A stretch of 45,319 bases of DNA from a virus. The translations under genes and the position numbers were made by a program. Positions 1-42,880 of the stretch are shown here, in pieces; position 1 is the stretch's first letter; every line of letters starts with the position of its first letter. Where the stretch lies: IMG/VR virus record IMGVR_UViG_3300048589_000345, positions 1 to 45,319 of that record; one strand, written 5' to 3'. The notes under the pieces are model-generated. The model saw only the letters and a list, made by a program, of their open reading frames with translations, had not been told where the DNA came from and searched no databases.

Positions 1-84
1 GGAAAGCACCGTAACCGGCGGGGGCGCCCGCGCGCCGCGCCACAGGGGCGCGACACGAACACCGCAACGGAGCATGACAAATGA
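1..84 (+). CDS. 3' fragment of the small membrane protein gene that is complete at 45050-45256
   Basis: This is the C-terminal part of the 68-residue protein encoded at 45050-45256, cut by the contig end. The stop codon TGA (82-84) overlaps the ATG of the next gene (81-83). It is not a separate gene. Confidence 0.8.
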   Translation, partial: GKHRNRRGRPRAAPQGRDTNTATEHDK

Positions 85-147
85 CCATCGCAACCGATTT
101 CGAGATCCAGAACGACAAGGACATCCGCTACATCGGCGCCGCACACG
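1..147. repeat. terminal direct repeat, left copy
   Basis: Bases 1-147 match 45173-45319 except at position 3 (A here, C there) and position 21 (G here, C there). The repeat carries the end of one gene (stop at 82-84) and the start of the next (ATG at 81). This is what an assembler leaves when it reads through a circular or terminally redundant molecule. The two mismatches lie near the extreme left end and may be sequencing or assembly error. Confidence 0.9.
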
Positions 148-1772
148 CGGCGTCGGGTGCCGGGTACTACACCGTGCTGGAACTGCACCGCTGGCTGCAA
201 GACCTCGCTGACGACGCGAGCAGCGCCGGCGACGACTACATGGACATCACGCGGGACACCCCCTCGGACAAGTCCTTCGACACGATCATCAACCTGATCA
301 ACGGCTTCAATCTCGACGACACCAGTGCCGAGCATATCTACGGCGGCTCGATTATTCAGGCCGGTGGCGACGTGATCTATGACGGTGTGCAGGTCGTCGC
401 GAACGCGGGCTGTCATGTCGAGATCGTCCAGAACGGCGCGATCATCACCAACGACTTCTGGAACAGCATCCCCTTCGGTGGCAGCGCCGAGGGCACCAGC
501 CCCGACGCGGCGAACGGCATCAGCGCGCGCTTTATGGTGAAGGTGCGCACGGGCGGGGCCGACATCGACGGGCGTAAGCTCCTGTTCCAGACCCGCGAGT
601 GGGGCAAGACCTACTCCGAGTTCAAGGTCAACGGAACCGGGCGGGGCGTGAACGTCGTGCCGCTCACCTACGCCGATGACCTGAACAACGCCACCTTGAT
701 CGCGACCATTGCGGCCATCGCCGACATCAGCAACACCGAAGGCTACCGCGCGATTGACGTCGACAACAGCGGCACGCCGGAGAACTACTACTCCGAGTGG
801 GACAAGGGTGCCAACAGCATCAACTCGTTCTACGAGCGCATGAAGTGGCTGACTCGGCGCGGCTCTGCCAGCACGGTCTACGGCATCAACGGCGAACTGT
901 TCCGGGGTATCACGCACGAGATCACGACCGACACGGCGTCGGGTACGTTCTCTGCCGTCGAGGCCGTGTCGTGGAGCGGTGGCACTGGGCGCATGCTGGC
1001 GATCAACAGCACCACCGCACCCACGAAGATGTGGATTCAGCTGCTCACGGGCGTGGCCCCTACCGACAACCAGGTCATTACCGGCGGCACGTCGGCTGCG
1101 ACCTGCCAGGTGAACGTCACGGTCACCGACCGCGCGCTGAGCTTCCCGTTCTGTGGCGTCTCGACCGGTTCGGCGCTCATCGGCGGCTACGGCTTCGGAG
1201 TCCAGGCGCTGGATCTGAGCGCGAACGACAAGGTGTTCGACCTGACCAACACGCTGCGCCAGGCGCCGAACTACGTCACCTTCACCGTCGGCGGGGTGGT
1301 GTCCACCGAAGACTACGTGCTGGTCGCCCCCGCAGACACCGGGGCCATCGACACCAACTTCTTCACGCTGGACGGGGCGCTCTCGGGCGCCGCGGTGACC
1401 TCTGTCGTCGTCAACGAGGCGATTCCGACGTGGTTGCCCTCCACCGGCACGATCCGCATCGCGCGGGCCAGCGGCGCGTACACGCGTCATCCGTACAGTG
1501 CCTACAACACCGGCACCAAGACCTTCACAATCACGGCGCACGACTTCAGCAGCAACGGCGCGGCTGACGATGCCAACTGCTTCCCGACTCCCATCGACAA
1601 GCTCGCGGGCGCGACCAGTGAAGCGTTCACCGGCATCTATCCGGGGGCGGATGTGGATCTCTACATCCGCGTGCGCGACGGCGGGAGCACGCCGATCAAG
1701 ACCTTCGAATCGACGGGTACGCTCGGCAGTGGCGGCGGGTCGGCGACGGCAGTACGCACGTCTGACGCGTGA
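81..1772 (+). CDS. phage structural protein, probable fibre/appendage protein
   Basis: A 563-residue acidic protein with no signal peptide or membrane segment. Its first ~110 residues are mixed helical; the rest is Gly/Thr/Ser/Asp-rich with alternating polar-hydrophobic stretches typical of beta-structured virion proteins, and it ends in a Gly/Ser-rich tail. The ATG overlaps the stop of the preceding small membrane-protein gene. It is followed after 11 bases by another large beta-rich protein, so the two are probably co-expressed and act together. No enzymatic motif was recognised. Position between the lysis genes and the capsid fusion gene fits a late virion component, but whether it is a tail fibre, head fibre or baseplate part cannot be told from sequence alone. 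Confidence 0.55.
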   Translation: MTIATDFEIQNDKDIRYIGAAHAASGAGYYTVLELHRWLQDLADDASSAGDDYMDITRDTPSDKSFDTIINLINGFNLDDTSAEHIYGGSIIQAGGDVIYDGVQVVANAGCHVEIVQNGAIITNDFWNSIPFGGSAEGTSPDAANGISARFMVKVRTGGADIDGRKLLFQTREWGKTYSEFKVNGTGRGVNVVPLTYADDLNNATLIATIAAIADISNTEGYRAIDVDNSGTPENYYSEWDKGANSINSFYERMKWLTRRGSASTVYGINGELFRGITHEITTDTASGTFSAVEAVSWSGGTGRMLAINSTTAPTKMWIQLLTGVAPTDNQVITGGTSAATCQVNVTVTDRALSFPFCGVSTGSALIGGYGFGVQALDLSANDKVFDLTNTLRQAPNYVTFTVGGVVSTEDYVLVAPADTGAIDTNFFTLDGALSGAAVTSVVVNEAIPTWLPSTGTIRIARASGAYTRHPYSAYNTGTKTFTITAHDFSSNGAADDANCFPTPIDKLAGATSEAFTGIYPGADVDLYIRVRDGGSTPIKTFESTGTLGSGGGSATAVRTSDA

Positions 1773-1783
1773 GGTAGCGCCCG

Positions 1784-4393
1784 ATGGCGACTATCAGCAC
1801 CAGCCAGACCTTCGACAGCGCGGCGCGCACGGCGGGCGAGGCGTTCACCATCACCTCCGGGGCGGTGTTCACCATCGACTCGGACACGCGCGATGGCAAG
1901 AACGCCGCCGCCGCGCGGGCCGGCTCGATGAGTTCGTTCACCATGACCGCCGCCTCGGGCGGGCAGGTGCTCGTGGATGGCACGAAGGTTTGGCTGATTG
2001 CCTACGACGGGCGCATCGGCACGCCGAACGTCCCGGCGCTCGGCACCATCATCCAGGGGGTGACCTCCGGCGCGTATGGCGAGCTGATGAACTGCACGTC
2101 GGCGATCAACGCCGTGCCGACAGCCGCCGGTGCCGCGATGCCGGCCACCGGCTACTTCAAGCTCAAGAGCGTCACCGGCACGTTTCAGGACAACGAGACA
2201 CTGGAGATTCAGGGGTCTACCGACCTGTGCCTCGCCAACGGCATCGGGGCACGCGGCTGGATCGAAGTCGTCATGGACGATGCGGCGACCCATACCATCG
2301 GCCGCGCGCAGACTTACAAGATCACCGGCGACTGGTACGTGTCGGAAACCGTCGGCTCTGGCTCCGCGCACCAGCAGGTGCAGTTTCCCAACTATGGTGG
2401 CGCGAATTTCTTCCTGCCGGGCTGCTGGGTGGACGAGGCCGCCGACGGCAACTGGGAGTTCTGGCCGGCGTGCATCACCGGCACCGGCACCTTCTGGTCG
2501 GCGGCAAACATGCTGGCCGAGACGAAGAACAAGTTCTGCGAGTGCCTGGGCGGCGGCATCATCCGCTTTGGCGGCAACGGCACGACCGCATGGGGCAAGA
2601 TCCCGACGGCCGGCGCGAAGTTCCGCATCCCGAACGTCCTGCTGAAGTCCGCAGCCACGGCTTCCCGCGCCTCGGACTCTGTTCCGCACGCGACCACGAC
2701 AAGCCGCCCTGATTTTGCGATGACGAATGCCGGGTCCATCGACATTGATGGGGCCATCGGCCACTGGAACATCGTCTCCAGCCAAGCGTATTCCGTGAAG
2801 CTGAAGCGATTGGCGTTGTTCGACATATACAACATCTCTGAGACAGCGGCTCCGCTGGACTTCGACGATTGCCACAACGGCAACTACATCATCGCGCAGG
2901 ATGCTGCTGCCTTTGTGTTGGCGAACAACTACGCCGGCGGAACAATCGCCAATTGCAAGTTCGGTCGGACGGGGACGATCGCCTCGGGGGACTATGGGAC
3001 GAGCGTTAGCTTCTGCAACAACATCACGTTCAGCGGGTGCCACTTTCAGGGGCGCACGCTGCGTACCAACGCCGCTGGCTACACGTCCTACTTCGCATAC
3101 TGCGCCGGGCTGATATTCAATGACTGCGTGACGGTGGGGAGCGGCACGTACATCTTCACTTGCACCAACACGACGATCAACGACCACCAGTACGCTGACA
3201 ACTACGCCGGCATCTCGAGCGTCACGAACGCCCCACTGGGCGCTCTGATCCTGACCAACTCGAATGGCGTCCTGATCGACGGGTTCTCGTGGTACACATC
3301 GACCGCGAACCAGCACCCGGATACGTGCATCGTCTACACGTCGTTCACCCAGAATCTGAAGGTGCGCAACATCGGCGCCTTCGCGTCCAAGCTCTCGGCC
3401 GGCTCGTCGAACGCCATGCTGTATTTCTGCAACGACGCGGGCAACTCCTACAATCTGGAGTTCAAGCGCATCTACATGGACTTGATCGCGACGACGTTCT
3501 TCAACTGCGTCAACTCGACCAAGAAGGTGCAGATCGCCAACTGCGAGGGCAACGTCACGGCGTACAAGGCGCTGGCCGCCGGCGCGTTGGACATGGAGGT
3601 CAAGAACTGCGGGCTGCTCGGCACCGGGTTTGGCATCGTGCCGGCGTCGCTGCTCTCGATCTACGGCTCGATGTTCGCGCACATCTTCACGTCCTCGACC
3701 GCCGGGCGGCTGCAGTGGCTGTTCAACGAGGACTCGGCGGCGAACTCGGCCTACGTCACGAAGTCGTTCAGCACATCATCAACCGGCACGTCGGGATTCA
3801 ACTCCGGCGGCGGTGTAGCGCTCATCAACTCCGGCGATTACATCATCTGCGAGTTCCCTTGGACGATCATCGGTGTCGACAGCTTCAACTCCGGCGCCGT
3901 CACGGTCACGACCTCGACCAACATGACGACCGAGTACGCCATAGACACGGGTTCGGGGTACGGCGCCTGGACGACGTTCAACTCGACCAATTTGTCTGCG
4001 GAGACGGTGGACGAAGTGGCGGGCTTTCGCATCAAGCTGCGGATCACGGCCAACGCCACCAACGCATCGAACCTCGTCACGCGCGTATCGTGTCTGACGG
4101 ACAGCAACTCGGTCGCACAGGCGCTGCAGTATCCGCTCGACCTTGCTACGGTCAGCATGACGGGGTTGGCGACTGGCAGCCGGGTGAAGGCGACCAAGGT
4201 TTCCGATAGCACCCTGCTTTTCAACGGGCCGGAATCTGGCGGGGCCATCAGCTTCGAGACGGATTACATCGGCGCCATCGCGTTGGAAGCGCGCAAGGCG
4301 TCCGCCGCGCCGTTCTACAAGCCCTTCGTCACGCAGGTGACGACGGTCGCCAATACCACCGCTTCGGCGGTTGCCCTGCAGCAGCTCGACTGA
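1784..4393 (+). CDS. large structural protein, probable fibre/spike with beta-helix-like region
   Basis: An 869-residue protein. The N-terminal ~290 residues are Gly/Ala/Thr-rich. Residues ~300-640 contain many short Asn/Cys/Gly turns spaced by hydrophobic strands (for example repeated N-C or F-N-x-C patterns), a look common in right-handed parallel beta-helix spikes. The C-terminal ~200 residues look like beta-sandwich. It has more cysteines than most virion proteins here. It follows the 563-aa structural protein by 11 bases and precedes a small gene by one base. I infer a receptor-binding or depolymerase-type appendage; no catalytic residues could be assigned. Confidence 0.5.
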   Translation: MATISTSQTFDSAARTAGEAFTITSGAVFTIDSDTRDGKNAAAARAGSMSSFTMTAASGGQVLVDGTKVWLIAYDGRIGTPNVPALGTIIQGVTSGAYGELMNCTSAINAVPTAAGAAMPATGYFKLKSVTGTFQDNETLEIQGSTDLCLANGIGARGWIEVVMDDAATHTIGRAQTYKITGDWYVSETVGSGSAHQQVQFPNYGGANFFLPGCWVDEAADGNWEFWPACITGTGTFWSAANMLAETKNKFCECLGGGIIRFGGNGTTAWGKIPTAGAKFRIPNVLLKSAATASRASDSVPHATTTSRPDFAMTNAGSIDIDGAIGHWNIVSSQAYSVKLKRLALFDIYNISETAAPLDFDDCHNGNYIIAQDAAAFVLANNYAGGTIANCKFGRTGTIASGDYGTSVSFCNNITFSGCHFQGRTLRTNAAGYTSYFAYCAGLIFNDCVTVGSGTYIFTCTNTTINDHQYADNYAGISSVTNAPLGALILTNSNGVLIDGFSWYTSTANQHPDTCIVYTSFTQNLKVRNIGAFASKLSAGSSNAMLYFCNDAGNSYNLEFKRIYMDLIATTFFNCVNSTKKVQIANCEGNVTAYKALAAGALDMEVKNCGLLGTGFGIVPASLLSIYGSMFAHIFTSSTAGRLQWLFNEDSAANSAYVTKSFSTSSTGTSGFNSGGGVALINSGDYIICEFPWTIIGVDSFNSGAVTVTTSTNMTTEYAIDTGSGYGAWTTFNSTNLSAETVDEVAGFRIKLRITANATNASNLVTRVSCLTDSNSVAQALQYPLDLATVSMTGLATGSRVKATKVSDSTLLFNGPESGGAISFETDYIGAIALEARKASAAPFYKPFVTQVTTVANTTASAVALQQLD

Positions 4394-4934: not shown

Positions 4935-5161
4935 GCCTCGACGCCCGCGCGGTCGCGCTGCAGGGCCTCGTGCCCGTGGGTGCCGGCGGTGCCGTGGTGC
5001 TGGTCACTGGCGAGCCCTCGGCCGACGTGCTTGTAGCGTTGTCCGCACACCTGGACGTCGCCCTTACGTCCGACCTCGCCGCGCCCAGGCTCTCCGCCGA
5101 CAACGGCATCGCGCTCGGCGCGCACCTGCAATCCACCCAGATCACCGCGGAGACCTGCTGA
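4931..5161 (+). CDS. small hypothetical protein
   Basis: The product is 76 residues, starting with GTG at 4931 that overlaps the upstream TGA (GTGA), a coupling arrangement used repeatedly in this genome. It is hydrophobic and Ala/Leu/Val-rich without a clear membrane segment. It reads in a frame distinct from both neighbours and ends two bases before the next ATG. Function unknown. Confidence 0.5.
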   Translation: MSLDARAVALQGLVPVGAGGAVVLVTGEPSADVLVALSAHLDVALTSDLAAPRLSADNGIALGAHLQSTQITAETC

Positions 5162-5163
5162 CC

Positions 5164-5499
5164 ATGCGCGATATCACCCTCGTGACCGGCGATGACGTGA
5201 CCCTGCTGCAGACGCTGAAGAAAGATGCCGCCACCTTCGACATGTCGGCAGCCACCGACGTGAAGAGCGTGCTGTTGGCGGCGTCTACGCGCGAGCCGCT
5301 GTTCGACCCCGTGGCACAGATCGAAGCCGGCGGCGCCGACTGGTCCGCGAGCCTGGTGGAGCACGTGTTCCCGGCGGCCACGACGGCGCTGATCACCTAC
5401 ACCGGCCCCGCCATCCTCGAAACGCAGGTCACGCTCTCGGGCAAGAAAAGCACCTGGTTCTCCACGAACCTGGTGATCGTGGCCGGCACCATCGAATAG
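5164..5499 (+). CDS. small virion-associated protein of unknown function
   Basis: The product is 111 residues, beginning MRDITLVTGDDVTLLQTLKKD, with a beta-rich composition resembling small domains found with phage fibre and baseplate proteins. It is the last gene of the five-gene block (81-5499) that sits before the capsid fusion gene, and is followed by a 101-base gap holding an inverted repeat. The family was not identified with certainty. Confidence 0.55.
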   Translation: MRDITLVTGDDVTLLQTLKKDAATFDMSAATDVKSVLLAASTREPLFDPVAQIEAGGADWSASLVEHVFPAATTALITYTGPAILETQVTLSGKKSTWFSTNLVIVAGTIE

Positions 5500-5539: not shown

Positions 5540-5600
5540 CCGCCCCGTGCATTCTCTGCCCGCATGAGTATCGCAAGACACAACATCTGGAATTCACCCG

Positions 5601-7628
5601 ATGCCTGATCTGACGACGGCCGCCCGGTGGTACGAAATCAAGGCGCGCGCGGCGGCTGCAGACAAGCCCTCGATGGCCGAGATCTACGTCTACGGCAACA
5701 TCGGTGACCGCTGGGACGAAAACGGCGTCATCGCCGCCGAGCTGGTGCGCGACATCGCCGCGCTCGACGTCGAGACCATCACGCTGCGCATCAACTCCTA
5801 CGGCGGCAGCGCCGTCGATGGCATCGCGATCTACAACGCGCTCAAGCGCCACCGCGCCATCGTGGACGCGCACGTCGATGGCGTCGCCATTTCCTGCGCC
5901 GGCTATCTGGCCATGGCGGGCGACACGCTCACCATGGCCGCCAATGCGCAGCTGATGATCCACGCGCCCTGGACCTACGCCGCTGGCAACGCCGTCGAGC
6001 TGCGCGAGCAGGCCGATGTGCTCGACCGCTACGCCCGCGCCATGGCCTCGGCCTACGCCGGCAAGAGCGGCAAGTCCCTGGATGCGTGCCTGGCGCTGCT
6101 CGCCGACGGAAAAGACCACTGGTACTCGGCCGATGAGGCCGTGTCCGAGGGCTTCGCCGATACGGTCAGCGACCCGATGCAGGCTGCCGCATCCATTGCG
6201 CGCAGCTTCGACCTCTCCCGCTTTGTCAACCCACCGGTGGCACAGTCCGCCGCCACTGCTCAGGAGGCAAACATGCCCAGCAACACCCCGGCACCCGTCG
6301 CCGCTCCCGTCGAGTCGGCCGTTGTGCCGTTCGCCCGTACCGCCGACATGAACAAGGACGTGCTGGCGCTGTTCAGCCCGTTCATCGCCCGCGATGGGAT
6401 CCAGGCCCTGCAGACCGAGGTGCTGGCAGACCCGGCGCTGAAACTCGAAGACATCCAGTCGCGGCTGCTCGCCAAGCTAGGCTCGGACGGGGCGCCGGCC
6501 AACCCCGCCGGCGCGCACCCGCGCGCCGAAGTCATCGAGGATGAGCTGGACAAGCGCAAGACCGCCGCATCCGCGGCGATCCTGGCGCGCGCCGGCATGG
6601 CCGATGACAAGACGCGCGCGGCGCTGAACGGCAACCCGTTCCGCGGCGCGAAGCTGATCGACATCGCGCGCTCCTCGCTCGAGCGCGCCGGCGTGCGCCA
6701 CGCCGGCATGAGCCAGATGGAAGTCGTCGCGGCGGCATTCACGCAGGGCACGTCGGACTTCCCGATCCTGCTCGAAAATGCGATGCACAAGTCCCTGCAG
6801 TCGGCCTATGCCGTGGCGCCCCTCACCTGGTCGCGCTTCTGCGCCCGAGGTTCCGTGAGCGACTTCCGCGCCCACAACCGCTACCAGGTCGGCAGCTTCG
6901 GCAACCTGGACACCGTCAACGAGCTCGGCGAGTTCACCAACAAGGCGGTGCCGGATGGCCAGAAGGCGAGCATCGCCGCCACCACCAAGGGCAACATCAT
7001 CAACCTGTCGCGCCAGGCGGTCATCAACGATGACCTGGGCGCGTTCATCGGGTTGAGTGCCAGCCTCGGACGCGCGGCAGCGCGTACCGTCGAAGCGGCG
7101 GTCTATGCCCTGCTGGCGCAGAACGCCGGCCTCGGCCCGACGGTGGGTTCCGCTCCGCTGTTCGACGCCACCCACGCCAACGTGGGCGCGGCCGGCGCGC
7201 TGTCGGTCACGACGGTCGAGGGCGCGCGCGTGCTCATGGCCTCGCAGACCGATGTGTCGGGCAATGACTACCTCGACCTGCGCCCGGCGGTGATCCTGGT
7301 GCCCATGGCCTCCGGTGGTACGGCGCGCGTGATCAACGATGCGCAATACGACCCCGACACCGCCAACAAGCTGCAGATGCCCAACCGGGTGCGCGGCCTG
7401 TTCCGCGACGTGATCGACACGCCGCGCCTGTCCGGCACGCGCTTCTACACCTTCGCCGATCCGATGGAGGCGCCGGTGCTCGAGGTGGCTTTCCTGGACG
7501 GCCAGGAAGACCCGTACCTGGAGCTGCAGAACGGCTTCGAGGTGGACGGCGCGCGCTACAAGGTGCGCCTGGACTTCGGCGTGGCCGCACTCGACTGGCG
7601 TGGCGCCACCACCCACGCCGGCGCCTGA
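5601..7628 (+). CDS. ClpP-like prohead protease / scaffold / major capsid fusion protein
   Basis: The product is 675 residues. Residues ~25-200 form a ClpP-like (S14/S49-type) prohead protease: INSYGGSAVDG near 64-74, the nucleophile Ser98 in GVAISCAGY, and His121 in LMIHAPW. Residues ~225-380 are charged, helical and Pro/Ala-rich, as expected of a scaffold/delta domain. Residues ~390-675 resemble the Mu gpT-type major head subunit. Protease-capsid fusions are a known family; the protease and scaffold parts are expected to be removed during head maturation. A second ribosome-binding site lies inside the gene (see 6273). The gene is preceded by a 101-base gap and followed by a GC hairpin, then the cement gene. 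Confidence 0.85.
   Translation: MPDLTTAARWYEIKARAAAADKPSMAEIYVYGNIGDRWDENGVIAAELVRDIAALDVETITLRINSYGGSAVDGIAIYNALKRHRAIVDAHVDGVAISCAGYLAMAGDTLTMAANAQLMIHAPWTYAAGNAVELREQADVLDRYARAMASAYAGKSGKSLDACLALLADGKDHWYSADEAVSEGFADTVSDPMQAAASIARSFDLSRFVNPPVAQSAATAQEANMPSNTPAPVAAPVESAVVPFARTADMNKDVLALFSPFIARDGIQALQTEVLADPALKLEDIQSRLLAKLGSDGAPANPAGAHPRAEVIEDELDKRKTAASAAILARAGMADDKTRAALNGNPFRGAKLIDIARSSLERAGVRHAGMSQMEVVAAAFTQGTSDFPILLENAMHKSLQSAYAVAPLTWSRFCARGSVSDFRAHNRYQVGSFGNLDTVNELGEFTNKAVPDGQKASIAATTKGNIINLSRQAVINDDLGAFIGLSASLGRAAARTVEAAVYALLAQNAGLGPTVGSAPLFDATHANVGAAGALSVTTVEGARVLMASQTDVSGNDYLDLRPAVILVPMASGGTARVINDAQYDPDTANKLQMPNRVRGLFRDVIDTPRLSGTRFYTFADPMEAPVLEVAFLDGQEDPYLELQNGFEVDGARYKVRLDFGVAALDWRGATTHAGA
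6273..7628 (+). CDS. internal in-frame start: probable scaffold-capsid product lacking the protease
   Basis: Within the fusion gene an exact AGGAGG (6262-6267) stands five bases before an in-frame ATG (6273, codon 225), at the junction between the ClpP-like domain and the scaffold region. Translation from here would give a 451-residue protein consisting of scaffold plus capsid. The layout parallels lambda C/Nu3, where scaffold is made from an internal start in the protease gene. This would allow capsid subunits to outnumber protease domains. The signal is seen directly; its use is inferred. Confidence 0.6.
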   Translation: MPSNTPAPVAAPVESAVVPFARTADMNKDVLALFSPFIARDGIQALQTEVLADPALKLEDIQSRLLAKLGSDGAPANPAGAHPRAEVIEDELDKRKTAASAAILARAGMADDKTRAALNGNPFRGAKLIDIARSSLERAGVRHAGMSQMEVVAAAFTQGTSDFPILLENAMHKSLQSAYAVAPLTWSRFCARGSVSDFRAHNRYQVGSFGNLDTVNELGEFTNKAVPDGQKASIAATTKGNIINLSRQAVINDDLGAFIGLSASLGRAAARTVEAAVYALLAQNAGLGPTVGSAPLFDATHANVGAAGALSVTTVEGARVLMASQTDVSGNDYLDLRPAVILVPMASGGTARVINDAQYDPDTANKLQMPNRVRGLFRDVIDTPRLSGTRFYTFADPMEAPVLEVAFLDGQEDPYLELQNGFEVDGARYKVRLDFGVAALDWRGATTHAGA

Positions 7629-7686: not shown

Positions 7687-8052
7687 ATGGCAAACAACTA
7701 CGTACAGCCCGGCGAAGTGATCGACTGGACCAACGGCGGATCGGACGTAACGGCCGGCGCCGTGGTGCGCATCGGCAAGATCCTCGGCGTTGCCCTGGTC
7801 GACATCGCCGGAAGTGCCACGGGATCGGTGCAGATCACCGGCGTCTTCGAGGTGCCCAAGGTCTCCGGCGCCGTGATCGCGCAGGGCGAGAACCTCACCT
7901 GGGACGCCTCGGCCGCCGCGTTCGACGACAACGCCGCCACGCCCGCCACGGGTGACGTGACCGGCGCGCCCGCGATCGCGTGGGAAGCGGCCGGCAACGG
8001 CGTCACCTCGTTCATGGTCAAGTTCACGGGCGTGCCGGGCACGGTGACCTGA
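7687..8052 (+). CDS. DUF2190-type capsid cement/decoration protein
   Basis: The product is 121 residues. The pattern near the start (VQPGEVIDWTN...VTAGAVVRIGKILGVA) and the later G-V-F-E-V-P-K and ENLTWDAS segments match the DUF2190 capsid cement family, small beta-barrel proteins that bind the outer head surface and stabilise the shell. Length is typical. It has a GGGAG ribosome-binding site (7675-7679) and lies directly after the capsid gene, the usual place. Its stop overlaps the next start. Confidence 0.75.
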   Translation: MANNYVQPGEVIDWTNGGSDVTAGAVVRIGKILGVALVDIAGSATGSVQITGVFEVPKVSGAVIAQGENLTWDASAAAFDDNAATPATGDVTGAPAIAWEAAGNGVTSFMVKFTGVPGTVT

Positions 8053-38390: not shown

Positions 38391-38974
38391 CCCGCGTCAG
38401 CCAGGCCGAATTCGCCCGCCTCTGCGGCGTCAACCGCAGCACCGTGTCGCGCTGGCTCAAGTCCGGGCGCATCGACGCCGACGCGCAGGGGCGGATAGAC
38501 CCCGTCGCCGCGCAGCGCCTGCGCCTCGCCACGGAAAGCCCGCTGCCGCATCACCAGGCGCGCAAGGCGCAGTTTGACGAGGCGCGCGCAGGTGGCGACA
38601 CGGAGGAGGGCGGCGAAGCCGCGCCAGCGGGCGCTGAGGAGGCCGCCGAGCCGTCCTCGCTGGAAGGGCTTGGCCACCAGCTCAAGCGCGCCACGGTCGA
38701 GCTGCAGCGCAACAAGGCGGAGCTCGCCGCGATGGAGATCGACAAGGCGGCCGGCGCGCTGGTGGCCCGCGAGGACATCGACTTCGTGCTGGCGGACTTC
38801 GGCGGCACGCTGCGCGGCCTCATGGAGGGCCTGCCCGATCGCCTGGCCGGCGAGATCGCCGCGCACCGCGGCGACGTCAACGCCATCCACAAATCGCTGG
38901 AAGACGCCGCCCGCGAGATCCTGCTGGCGATCAGCGCGCAGATGGAGCGGCGGATCGAGGAGCTGGCGGCATGA
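38387..38974 (+). CDS. terminase small subunit-like protein
   Basis: The product is 195 residues from GTG 38387. N-terminal HTH (~4-26: VSQAEFARLCGVNRSTVSRW), an acidic Ala/Glu linker (~60-85) and a helical C-terminal oligomerisation region. It lies directly before the GpA-type large subunit with a 4-base overlap. It probably recognises the packaging site on the phage DNA. Confidence 0.75.
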   Translation: MTRVSQAEFARLCGVNRSTVSRWLKSGRIDADAQGRIDPVAAQRLRLATESPLPHHQARKAQFDEARAGGDTEEGGEAAPAGAEEAAEPSSLEGLGHQLKRATVELQRNKAELAAMEIDKAAGALVAREDIDFVLADFGGTLRGLMEGLPDRLAGEIAAHRGDVNAIHKSLEDAAREILLAISAQMERRIEELAA

Positions 38975-40848
38975 GCATGCCGCGCCGCTCCACCACCGCG
39001 CTGCCCGCCGGGCGGCGCGAGCTGTACCAGGGCCTGGTGCGGGCCTGCCGCCCGCGCCCCCTGACCACGGTGTCCAGCTGGGCCGACGCGCACCGCGTGC
39101 TGTCCAGCAAGGGCAGCGGCGAGCCCGGCCCGTGGCGCACCTCGCGCACGCCGTACCTGCGCGAGATCATGGACCAGCTCTCGGCCAGTTCGCCGGTGCA
39201 GCGCATCGTGATGATGTTCGCCGCGCAGATCGGCAAGACGGAGGTCGGCCTCAACTGGCTCGGCTACATCGTGCACCACTCGCCGGCGCCCGCGCTGGTG
39301 GTGCTCCCGACGCTGGAGGTGCGCAAGCGCTGGGTCAAGCAGCGCCTCGACCCTCTGCTCGGGGAAACGCCGGCCCTACGCGCCATCTTCGGCGGCAAGC
39401 GCACGCGCGATGCCGCGAACGCGGAAGACATGAAGGATTTTCCGGGCGGGCTCATGGTGCTCTCCGGCGCCAACAGCCCGGCCAGCCTCGCCAGCATGCC
39501 GATCCGCTTCGCGCTGCTCGACGAGGTCGACCGCTTTCCGTGGGAGGCCGGCGCCGAGGGCGACCCATTGGGGTTGATCGACGAAAGGACGAAGACGTTC
39601 CCCCGCCGCAAGGTGCTGCTGGTCTCCACGCCCACCACCAAGGGGCTGAGCCGCATCGAGGGCGAATACGAGAAGTCCGACCAACGCCAGTACCACGTGC
39701 CGTGCCCGCACTGCAACGAGTTCCAGGTGCTGCGCTGGCGCCACGATGACGGCACCTACGGCCTGGCGCACAGCGCCGCCACCGGCGGCACGCGCTATGC
39801 CTGCCGCGCCTGCGGCACGCTGATCGAAGAGCACCACAAGCCCGCCATGCTCGAGCGCGGCGTCTGGATCCCGCGCTACCCCGAGCGCGCCGTGCGTGGC
39901 TACCACCTCTCGGGGCTGTACTCGCCGCTCGGCCTGGGCTTCACGTGGTCCGAGCTCTGGCAGAAATGGCAGGACAGCCACGGTGACACCGCCAACCTCA
40001 AGCGCTTCATCAACACGACGTTAGCCGAGGTCTGGGAGGAGAAGGGCGACAGCATTGCCGACGTGGCGCTGATCGCTCGCCTGGAGCACTACCCCGAGCG
40101 CCTGCCGCTGCGCTTGATCACGGCGTTCACCGACGTGCAGAAAGACCGCCTCGAAACCACGCTTGTCGGCTGGGGCGCCGGCGAGGAAGCATGGGTGCTG
40201 GAGCACATGATCCACCCCGGCGACACCGCCGCGCAGGACGTGTGGGACGATCTGGCCGAGTACCTGCACGACAAGCGCCCGGCCGCGGCCGGCATCGACG
40301 CCGGCTACAACACCAGCATGGTCTACGCCTTCTGCGAGAAGAAGCGCTGGGCGTTCCCCACGAAAGGTGTTTCCGGCATGGGTCGCCCGCTGATCGAGGA
40401 CGAACGCCGCCGCCGCCAGCGCCTGCGCACGCGGCGCAAGAAGGGCGCGGCCGTCGAGCCGCTGGGCGTGGACCAGGGCAAGGCGCTGGTGTACTCGCGC
40501 CTCAAGCTCACCGTTCCCGGGCCGGGTTTCGTGCACTTTCCGCAGCAGGCGGATTTCGACGACGAGTATTTCGCGCAGTTGGCCGGCGAAAAACTCGTCA
40601 CCAAGGTGCGCGGCACCCGCCCGGTGCAGGAATGGGTGCAGACCCGCCCCCGCAACGAGGCGCTCGACTGCCTGGTGGGCAACTTCGCGCTGCTGCGCCT
40701 GCACCTGAACGGGCGCGACCTCGACGCGCTGCCGCTGCTCGATCGCGCCGCCGGCGTCGCCACGGCGCCCGCGCCCGCCCCCGAAGCCACGCCCGCGCCG
40801 CCCAAGCGCCATCACCCGGGAGAGTGGAGCTTTGAGCGAAGAGCATGA
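38971..40848 (+). CDS. terminase large subunit (GpA family)
   Basis: The product is 625 residues. The ATPase has a variant Walker A (AAQIGKTE, ~84-91) and Walker B (LLDEVD, 182-187). A zinc-like site follows (CPHC ~240 and CRAC ~277). The nuclease part includes DVQKDR and later acidic residues. The family packages DNA into the prohead and cuts it; lambda GpA makes cohesive ends, but the terminal redundancy seen here does not decide the mode. Confidence 0.85.
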   Translation: MSMPRRSTTALPAGRRELYQGLVRACRPRPLTTVSSWADAHRVLSSKGSGEPGPWRTSRTPYLREIMDQLSASSPVQRIVMMFAAQIGKTEVGLNWLGYIVHHSPAPALVVLPTLEVRKRWVKQRLDPLLGETPALRAIFGGKRTRDAANAEDMKDFPGGLMVLSGANSPASLASMPIRFALLDEVDRFPWEAGAEGDPLGLIDERTKTFPRRKVLLVSTPTTKGLSRIEGEYEKSDQRQYHVPCPHCNEFQVLRWRHDDGTYGLAHSAATGGTRYACRACGTLIEEHHKPAMLERGVWIPRYPERAVRGYHLSGLYSPLGLGFTWSELWQKWQDSHGDTANLKRFINTTLAEVWEEKGDSIADVALIARLEHYPERLPLRLITAFTDVQKDRLETTLVGWGAGEEAWVLEHMIHPGDTAAQDVWDDLAEYLHDKRPAAAGIDAGYNTSMVYAFCEKKRWAFPTKGVSGMGRPLIEDERRRRQRLRTRRKKGAAVEPLGVDQGKALVYSRLKLTVPGPGFVHFPQQADFDDEYFAQLAGEKLVTKVRGTRPVQEWVQTRPRNEALDCLVGNFALLRLHLNGRDLDALPLLDRAAGVATAPAPAPEATPAPPKRHHPGEWSFERRA

Positions 40849-41157: not shown

Positions 41158-41367
41158 ATGGCTTTCACCTCCGCCGACATTGACGCCATCGACCGCGCCA
41201 TCGCCTCCGGCGAGCTGATCGTGCGCATGGGCGATCGCCAGGTGCAATACCGCACGCTCGATGAACTGCTGGCCGCGCGCGACCGCATCAGCGCCGTGAT
41301 CGCCGCGCAGTCCAGCACCTCGCGGGCCTACCCGCGCTACCAACAGGCGAGCTTCGCCGATGAGTGA
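41158..41367 (+). CDS. gpW-like head-tail joining protein
   Basis: The product is 69 residues, the length of lambda gpW (68). FTSADIDAIDRAIASGEL and VQYRTLDELLAARDRI match the family. It fits into the portal ring after packaging and allows tail attachment. It lies between terminase and portal as in lambda and overlaps the portal start by 8 bases. Confidence 0.8.
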   Translation: MAFTSADIDAIDRAIASGELIVRMGDRQVQYRTLDELLAARDRISAVIAAQSSTSRAYPRYQQASFADE

Positions 41368-42880
41368 CCGCAACGTGCTGGATCGTCTCGTCGCCTGGTA
41401 CTCGCCCGTGCGTGCCCTGCGCCGCCAGCAGGCGCGCCGCCTGCTGGCCTACTACGAGGCCGGCCGCCCCGACACCCTGCGCAAGCAGCGCCGCGAAACC
41501 GGCACCGGCAACGATGCCGTGCTGCGCGCCGGCGCCAGCATCCGCCAGCAGGCGCGGCACATGGAGCAGAACTACGATCTCGCCCTCGGGGTGCTCAACA
41601 CCCTGGTGGCCAACGTGGTGGGGCCCGGCGGCATCGGCATCGAGCCCCAGCCGCGCAAGGCCGATGGCACCATCCATGACGATCTGTCGCGCGAGATTCT
41701 CGACCTGTTCAAGGACTGGTCGCGCAGCCCCGAGGTGACGCGCCAGCACGACTGGCCCAGCGCGCAGCGCATGCTCTGCCGCGCGTGGATGCGCGACGGC
41801 GAGGTGTTCAGCCAGCTGCTGCTGGGCGCCGTGCCGTTGCTGAGCCACAACACCCGCGTGCCGCTGTCGCTGGAAATGCTCGAAGCGGATTTCGTTCCCC
41901 TGGACATGCAGTCAACCCGCCCGCTGATCGAGCAGGGCGTGGAGCTCAACGGCTGGGGCGCCCCGGTGGCCTACCACGTCTACAAGCAGAACCCGCTGTC
42001 GGCATCGTCTCTGGTCGCGCTCGGCCAGACCAAGCGCATCGATGCGCGCAACATGCTGCATCTCGCGCACCGCAACCGCATCCGCCAGCTGCGCGGCGTG
42101 AGCATCTTCGCGAGCGTCATGCACCGCTTCGACGACCTCAAGGACTACGAGGAATCCGAGCGCATCGCCGCCAAGATCGCCGCCAGCATGGCTGCGTTCA
42201 TCCGCAAGGGCAGCCCGGACCAGTACGAAGAGGCCGCCGACGGCTCGCCGCGCCAGCTCGCCATGCGCCCGGGCATGATCTTCGACGACCTCAAGCCCGG
42301 CGAAGAAATCGGCACCATCGACACCAGCCGTCCGAACCCCAACCTCGAGGCGTACCGCTCGAGTCAGCTCAAGGCCATCGCCGCCGGGTGCGGACCCACG
42401 TACAGCGCCATCGCCCGCACCTATGACGGCACCTACAGCGCGCAGCGCCAGGAGCTGGTCGAGGGCTGGAACATCTACGGCGTGCTCGCCAGCGAATTCA
42501 TCGGGCGTATCGTGCGCCCGGTGTACGAGGCGTTCATTGCCATGGCCGTAGCCGGCGGCGAGCTGAAGCTTCCCGCCGGCGTGCGCCCCGACACCCTCAC
42601 GGACGCCGAATACCTCGCCCCGCAGATGCCCTGGATCGACCCGGTCAAGGAAGTCACCGGCTGGGGCATGCTGGAAGACCGCGCCTACGCCAGCGGTCCC
42701 GAGATCGTGCGCCGCCGCGGCGGCAACCCGCTGGACGTCATCGAGCAGCAGGCCCGCTGGCTGCGCGCCAAGGAAGCGGCCGGCGTGCCGCCGGCCAATG
42801 CCGCCGCGCCCGCGTCCGCGCTGCCCGCGCCGGATCCGGACGAAGAGCCCGCCAAGCCCGCGCGCCGGGGTGCCGCGTGA
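41360..42880 (+). CDS. portal protein, lambda GpB type
   Basis: The product is 506 residues, close to lambda B (533). Features: N-terminal LRRQQARRLLAYYEAG, NYDLALGVLNTLVANVVG, the LEADFVPLD motif and a C-terminal DPVKEVTGWGMLEDR. The Ala/Pro-rich tail (from ~470) is unstructured. It forms the dodecameric ring for DNA entry and exit. Normally the protease and capsid genes follow; here they are 8 kb away. Confidence 0.85.
   Translation: MSDRNVLDRLVAWYSPVRALRRQQARRLLAYYEAGRPDTLRKQRRETGTGNDAVLRAGASIRQQARHMEQNYDLALGVLNTLVANVVGPGGIGIEPQPRKADGTIHDDLSREILDLFKDWSRSPEVTRQHDWPSAQRMLCRAWMRDGEVFSQLLLGAVPLLSHNTRVPLSLEMLEADFVPLDMQSTRPLIEQGVELNGWGAPVAYHVYKQNPLSASSLVALGQTKRIDARNMLHLAHRNRIRQLRGVSIFASVMHRFDDLKDYEESERIAAKIAASMAAFIRKGSPDQYEEAADGSPRQLAMRPGMIFDDLKPGEEIGTIDTSRPNPNLEAYRSSQLKAIAAGCGPTYSAIARTYDGTYSAQRQELVEGWNIYGVLASEFIGRIVRPVYEAFIAMAVAGGELKLPAGVRPDTLTDAEYLAPQMPWIDPVKEVTGWGMLEDRAYASGPEIVRRRGGNPLDVIEQQARWLRAKEAAGVPPANAAAPASALPAPDPDEEPAKPARRGAA

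Follow-up and report, generated by a model that had tools for sequence, protein, structure and literature searches.

A conserved in-frame internal start in phage protease-scaffold-capsid fusion genes is predicted to yield a protease-free scaffold-capsid precursor

Described protease-capsid fusions and nested starts

Fusions of a head protease to the major capsid protein are represented by the Gifsy-2 type (NF045540, PHROG 133; Gifsy-2, Fels-1, mEp460, cdtI, and F10), in which a ClpP-like protease, a central region, and an HK97-type capsid are joined in a single protein; Gifsy-2 itself has been described as possessing a tripartite capsid gene (Effantin 2010, as cited in PMC8538268). In the phage records of this type considered here, the fusion is annotated as a single product, unlike the two products proposed here. 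A second group, the S78-type fusions (PHROG 4523; e.g., Stenotrophomonas phage S1, Bordetella PBb002, and Rhodobacter RcKemmy), agrees with this type in its scaffold-capsid half and its internal Shine-Dalgarno (SD)-ATG but carries a different protease family in front (PF04586), and some of its members consist of two genes. Protease-capsid fusions of Paracoccus phages have been reported as evolved gene fusions (PMC6536676), with no mention of an internal start in the passages of that virome paper considered here.

In addition to these fusions, nested starts are known from the C/Nu3 genes of lambda and the I/Z genes of Mu, in which an in-frame internal start within the protease gene gives a scaffold sharing the C-terminus of the protease, as annotated in both records. 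In these phages, the nested product comprises no more than the scaffold, and a separate gene encodes the capsid protein. A literature search for an internal start in protease-capsid fusions, which did not cover Effantin (2010), found none. Thus, fusions and nested starts are each already known, whereas no description was found of a nested product extending through the capsid protein and kept family-wide behind two protease families.

Architecture of the fusion gene

The analysed stretch (hereafter the window) is the virus record IMGVR_UViG_3300048589_000345, 45,319 bases in length, in which the open reading frame at 5601-7628 encodes a fusion protein of 675 aa. The features of the locus are as follows.

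5583-5600, + strand: region upstream of the main start, ACATCTGGAATTCACCCG, with a weak SD (dG -3.3, SD energy)
5601-7628, + strand: protease-scaffold-major capsid protein fusion gene, full-length product 675 aa, 71.2 kDa (NF045540, phrog_133; computed mass)
5676-6173, + strand: ClpP-like head maturation protease domain, residues 26-191 (NF045542, PF00574, alignment, ClpP fold match)
6198-6329, + strand: disordered linker, residues 200-243, holding the predicted internal start (AlphaFold2 pLDDT <50 at 200-243)
6262-6267, + strand: putative internal SD AGGAGG, dG -10.3 with the anti-SD (sequence; SD-like run kept in 139/148 representatives)
6273-6275, + strand: predicted internal start codon ATG, Met225 (sequence; aligned ATG in nearly all relatives)
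6273-7628, + strand: predicted nested product, scaffold and major capsid protein, 451 aa, 47.5 kDa, protease-free (from the conserved start)
6342-6620, + strand: helical scaffold-like region, residues about 248-340 (AlphaFold2 helices)
6720-7610, + strand: major capsid domain (Phage_capsid_4), HK97-type, residues 374-670 (PF25209, E 1.2e-48)
7687-8052, + strand: head decoration (cement) protein, downstream neighbour of the fusion (PF09956, E 1.5e-21)

The fusion protein was assigned to PHROG 133 and scored 611.3 bits against NF045540, the model of ClpP-like prohead protease/MCP fusions (cut-off 475), over residues 25-672, indicating a full-length member; it showed 34-35% identity to the Gifsy-2 type over 98-99% of the protein. 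Against NF045541, the model of prohead protease/MCP fusions of the PHROG 4523 type, only residues 215-675 were matched and the score of 393.6 bits lay below the cut-off of 525, the window protein carrying a ClpP domain and not the S78-type protease of that model. The protease domain itself scored 176.6 bits against NF045542 (cut-off 120) and was also matched by PF00574. Moreover, Ser98 and His121 were invariant in an alignment of 39 sequences, and the protease part matched ClpP structures by fold (E 2e-13).

An AlphaFold2 model of the fusion protein, based on 39 related sequences (mean pLDDT 82.5), was confident for the protease and capsid parts and placed Met225 centrally within the disordered linker. 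Between linker and capsid domain, helices were predicted at residues 248-261, 267-276, 282-295, 315-330, and 336-340, a region to which a scaffold role is ascribed by analogy with the Gifsy-2 type. As for the genomic surroundings, the genes of two large, possibly fibre-like proteins of 563 and 869 aa, neither of which had a PHROG match, lie just upstream of the fusion gene (81-4393), and the portal (41360-42880) and terminase (38971-40848) genes are located at the opposite end of the record, unlike many annotated relatives, in which the portal gene lies immediately 5' of the fusion gene.

A Shine-Dalgarno-ATG at the protease-scaffold junction

The original prediction placed an AGGAGG five bases before an in-frame ATG at codon 225 of the fusion gene, and this was confirmed: the motif, the spacer CAAAC (6268-6272), and the ATG at 6273 follow one another in the frame of the 5601-7628 ORF, forming the only AGGAGG-N5-ATG in the whole record. 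The gene has 16 internal Met codons, of which Met225 was the best by pairing energy, with a dG of -10.3 compared with -3.0 for the next. A similar site was found in Gifsy-2, where GAGGAG precedes an in-frame ATG 20 aa past the protease (dG -8.8). Judged from its sequence, the window gene resembles lambda C/Nu3 in having an in-frame internal start with an SD inside the protease gene, and differs from lambda and Mu in that the nested ORF (6273-7628) runs through the capsid domain; both the parallel with lambda and this difference, as drawn in the original prediction, hold.

Within the window gene, the bare motif was not exceptional. The window contains two instances of AGGAGG followed by ATG at 4-9 bases, compared with 1.19 ± 1.26 in shuffled sequences, which is within chance, and the Gln-Glu pair before Met225 gave AGGAGG in 70% of synonymous recodings as well, which makes the single-gene test uninformative. 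The local RNA structure at the site (-9.2 kcal/mol) was not especially open, and across genes the local openness differed little from that of synonymous recodings (p 0.07). Since the motif alone is within chance here, the case for an internal start rests on its position and conservation.

The same scan was applied to known systems as a control. In Mu gene I, the annotated Z start was picked as the best of six ATGs (-7.4). In lambda C, codon 309 was picked (-10.8), not the annotated Nu3 start at codon 239 (+0.5). In the lambda record (NC_001416, locus L272, 4300-5800), the annotated nu3 start at position 5132 has no SD, and codon 309, at position 5342, reads CAGGAGGGCGA-ATG and has, by a wide margin, the strongest SD among the 17 in-frame ATGs; the start annotated for nu3 may be wrong. 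Purified Nu3 is presumably only about 13 kDa, a size that would fit codon 309. For the l5 gene of Lactococcus phage c2, another protease-capsid fusion, the best internal ATG was codon 131 (dG -8.4), far upstream of codon 206, where the mature protein starts.

Conservation across fusion genes

Relatives were gathered from IMG/VR, GTDB genomes, and annotated phages. The 230 fusion genes obtained, of which 182 carry a ClpP-type protease and 48 an S78-type protease (Pfam PF04586), were reduced to 149 representatives at 75% identity. SD sequences were scored as pairing energy with the anti-SD, with a threshold of dG <= -5.3. The original prediction had listed a lack of conservation among relatives as evidence against it, and the site proved almost universal: an in-frame ATG lies 19-77 residues past the protease in 148/149 representatives, and 139 of these 148 junction ATGs have an SD-like sequence at the threshold, compared with 5.5% of the 2,163 ATGs elsewhere inside the genes. 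At the junction, dG averaged -6.85 versus -5.08 in a selection-matched synonymous null, in which the whole linker was recoded and the best ATG was chosen in the same way (p 2.5e-17), and the excess held separately for the ClpP-type (119 genes) and S78-type (29 genes) proteases.

The SD-ATG spacing peaked at 5 and 8 bases, and the SD mostly took the form of AGGAG, GGAG, GAGG, or AAGGA, the exact AGGAGG being special to the window sequence. The exceptions included L103, L189, and L214, with a weak or absent SD, and L148, without an ATG in the interval. In a hold-out set of more distant fusions, 10/16 reached dG <= -5.3. Four remoter fusions (L264, L267, L268, and L269), whose N-terminal protease matches PHROG 3244 or, weakly, PF04586, have CAGGAG or AAGGAG ahead of an in-frame junction ATG.

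Nucleotide-level selection at the junction

A conserved stretch behind a protease could also be a feature of the protein, such as a self-cleavage site, with the SD-like letters arising as a by-product of Lys/Gln-Glu before Met. Consistent with this, most genes have a Glu at 2-6 residues ahead of the Met, the register mostly falls in the same codon phase (129/144), and the window peptide by itself yields AGGAGG at the rate among recodings given above. Codon usage argues otherwise. When the analysis was confined to linkers containing a single Met, so that the Met was identified from the protein sequence only, GAG encoded the Glu just upstream of the junction Met in 85% of cases versus 54% expected (z 6.0); the preceding codon ended in G in 69% versus 53% expected (z 3.0). 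Glu codons elsewhere had no GAG bias (z 0.5), and Glu residues at other linker positions or ahead of other Mets behaved like the controls (0 or negative), so that the preference for GAG over GAA and for a preceding third-position G is selected only at the junction. Outside the junction, G-ending codons before Glu were under-used (21% versus 33% expected, z -17 (-16.9)), as if internal SD-like sequences were avoided.

Furthermore, the peptides themselves are not conserved, with 146 distinct sequences among the 148 upstream hexapeptides. Where Glu is missing at -2 to -6 (19 genes), 14/19 keep dG <= -5.3, the purine run being preserved mostly via AAAGGA (Lys-Gly) or AAGGAC/T (Lys-Asp). A protein feature would also have to account for the same site behind two proteases of different families, and this explanation is considered very unlikely. 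Codon choice at the junction is, by these tests, selected at the nucleotide level. Moreover, the codons after the junction ATG were A-rich beyond the synonymous expectation (p 4e-10), and the second residue after the junction Met was small in 77% of cases versus 51-54%, both of which, going by composition, are start-site features.

Split relatives and origin of the site

Six relatives (L078, L079, L242, L257, L259, and L265) have separate protease and capsid genes, and in each the capsid gene begins with its own SD-ATG near the protease stop. In L078, the stop codon TAA of the S78 protease gene (2521-2523) is directly followed by GGAGTAGTC-ATG, from which a 510-aa scaffold-capsid protein is encoded; in L079, the stop lies at 1188-1190 and GAGGAG precedes the ATG at 1207; and the remaining four (L242, L257, L259, and L265) likewise encode protease and capsid in two ORFs, the capsid ORF beginning at an SD-ATG. 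The more distant Faecalibacterium phage FP_Epona shows the same two-gene order, with AGGAGG before the capsid gene. Because the capsid gene of the split relatives starts at this place, the internal ATG seen in the fusions has a true gene start as its counterpart in relatives.

In the split loci, the S78-type protease and scaffold-capsid genes are adjacent or overlapping, and fusion and split arrangements coexist in one family. A further locus, L023, carries a 13-bp tandem repeat (CACTGGTATTCCG twice; 3517-3542) that causes a frameshift where the protease domain ends and leaves the capsid part in another frame behind an internal AAGGAGG-ATG; it was not counted as a natural protease/capsid break, since the repeat may be an assembly artefact.

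Hence, by comparison with the split genes, the junction site probably originated as the start of a once separate capsid gene. It could then be a vestige, an old start codon passively retained after fusion, a view for which the six split loci speak. However, the linker peptides have diverged beyond alignment, yet the SD persists under nucleotide-level selection, and at 35-70% protein identity a passive relic would have decayed, which makes mere retention highly improbable. That the SD-like sequence pauses ribosomes after the protease domain to aid folding, without initiation, fits its place in the linker right behind a folded domain but is barely conceivable, as it leaves unexplained why an ATG is conserved at the distance expected of a start codon, why the second residue is small and the following codons are A-rich, and why the split genes start at the site.

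Proposed mechanism and significance

The reading of the AGGAGG-ATG as an internal start is thus supported by its conservation, by codon selection at the nucleotide level, by split relatives that start there, and by the location of Met225 in a disordered linker. In the window gene, the SD energy was -3.3 at the main start versus -10.3 at the internal start, and across 141 genes the internal start was the stronger in 64% (p 1.6e-6). Given the stronger internal SD, most of the product would be the 47.5-kDa scaffold-capsid protein, and the 71.2-kDa fusion would be a minority protease carrier.

It is proposed that AGGAGG-ATG acts as an in-frame internal ribosome-binding site, so that one mRNA would give two proteins with a common C-terminus: translation from 5601 would yield the protease-scaffold-capsid fusion as the minority product, and translation from 6273 the more abundant scaffold-capsid precursor of 451 aa. 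Both would co-assemble through their common scaffold and capsid parts, and the prohead would receive its full number of capsid subunits with only some protease domains, which would afterwards remove the scaffold. We infer internal initiation and the product ratio from the sequence comparisons above, and co-assembly and the dosage role from the common C-terminal part and the known C/Nu3 logic. Taken together, it is very likely that in-frame internal initiation produces the 451-aa scaffold-capsid precursor alongside a minority of full-length fusion and that the two share heads.

For the phages in which protease, scaffold, and capsid are fused in one gene, a large and widespread class of tailed phages, it is probable, with somewhat less assurance, that the real major capsid precursor is the conserved, internally initiated protein, that the annotated fusion is a minor protease-delivery isoform, and that two protease families were placed before the same nested cistron. 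If true, this would explain how a phage whose protease is covalently joined to its capsid protein can escape packing a protease with every capsid subunit, and the annotated capsid product of NF045540, PHROG 133, and PHROG 4523 phages would probably not be their main capsid precursor. It would also offer an evolutionary route by which proteases were joined to the front of a capsid cistron whose start was retained.
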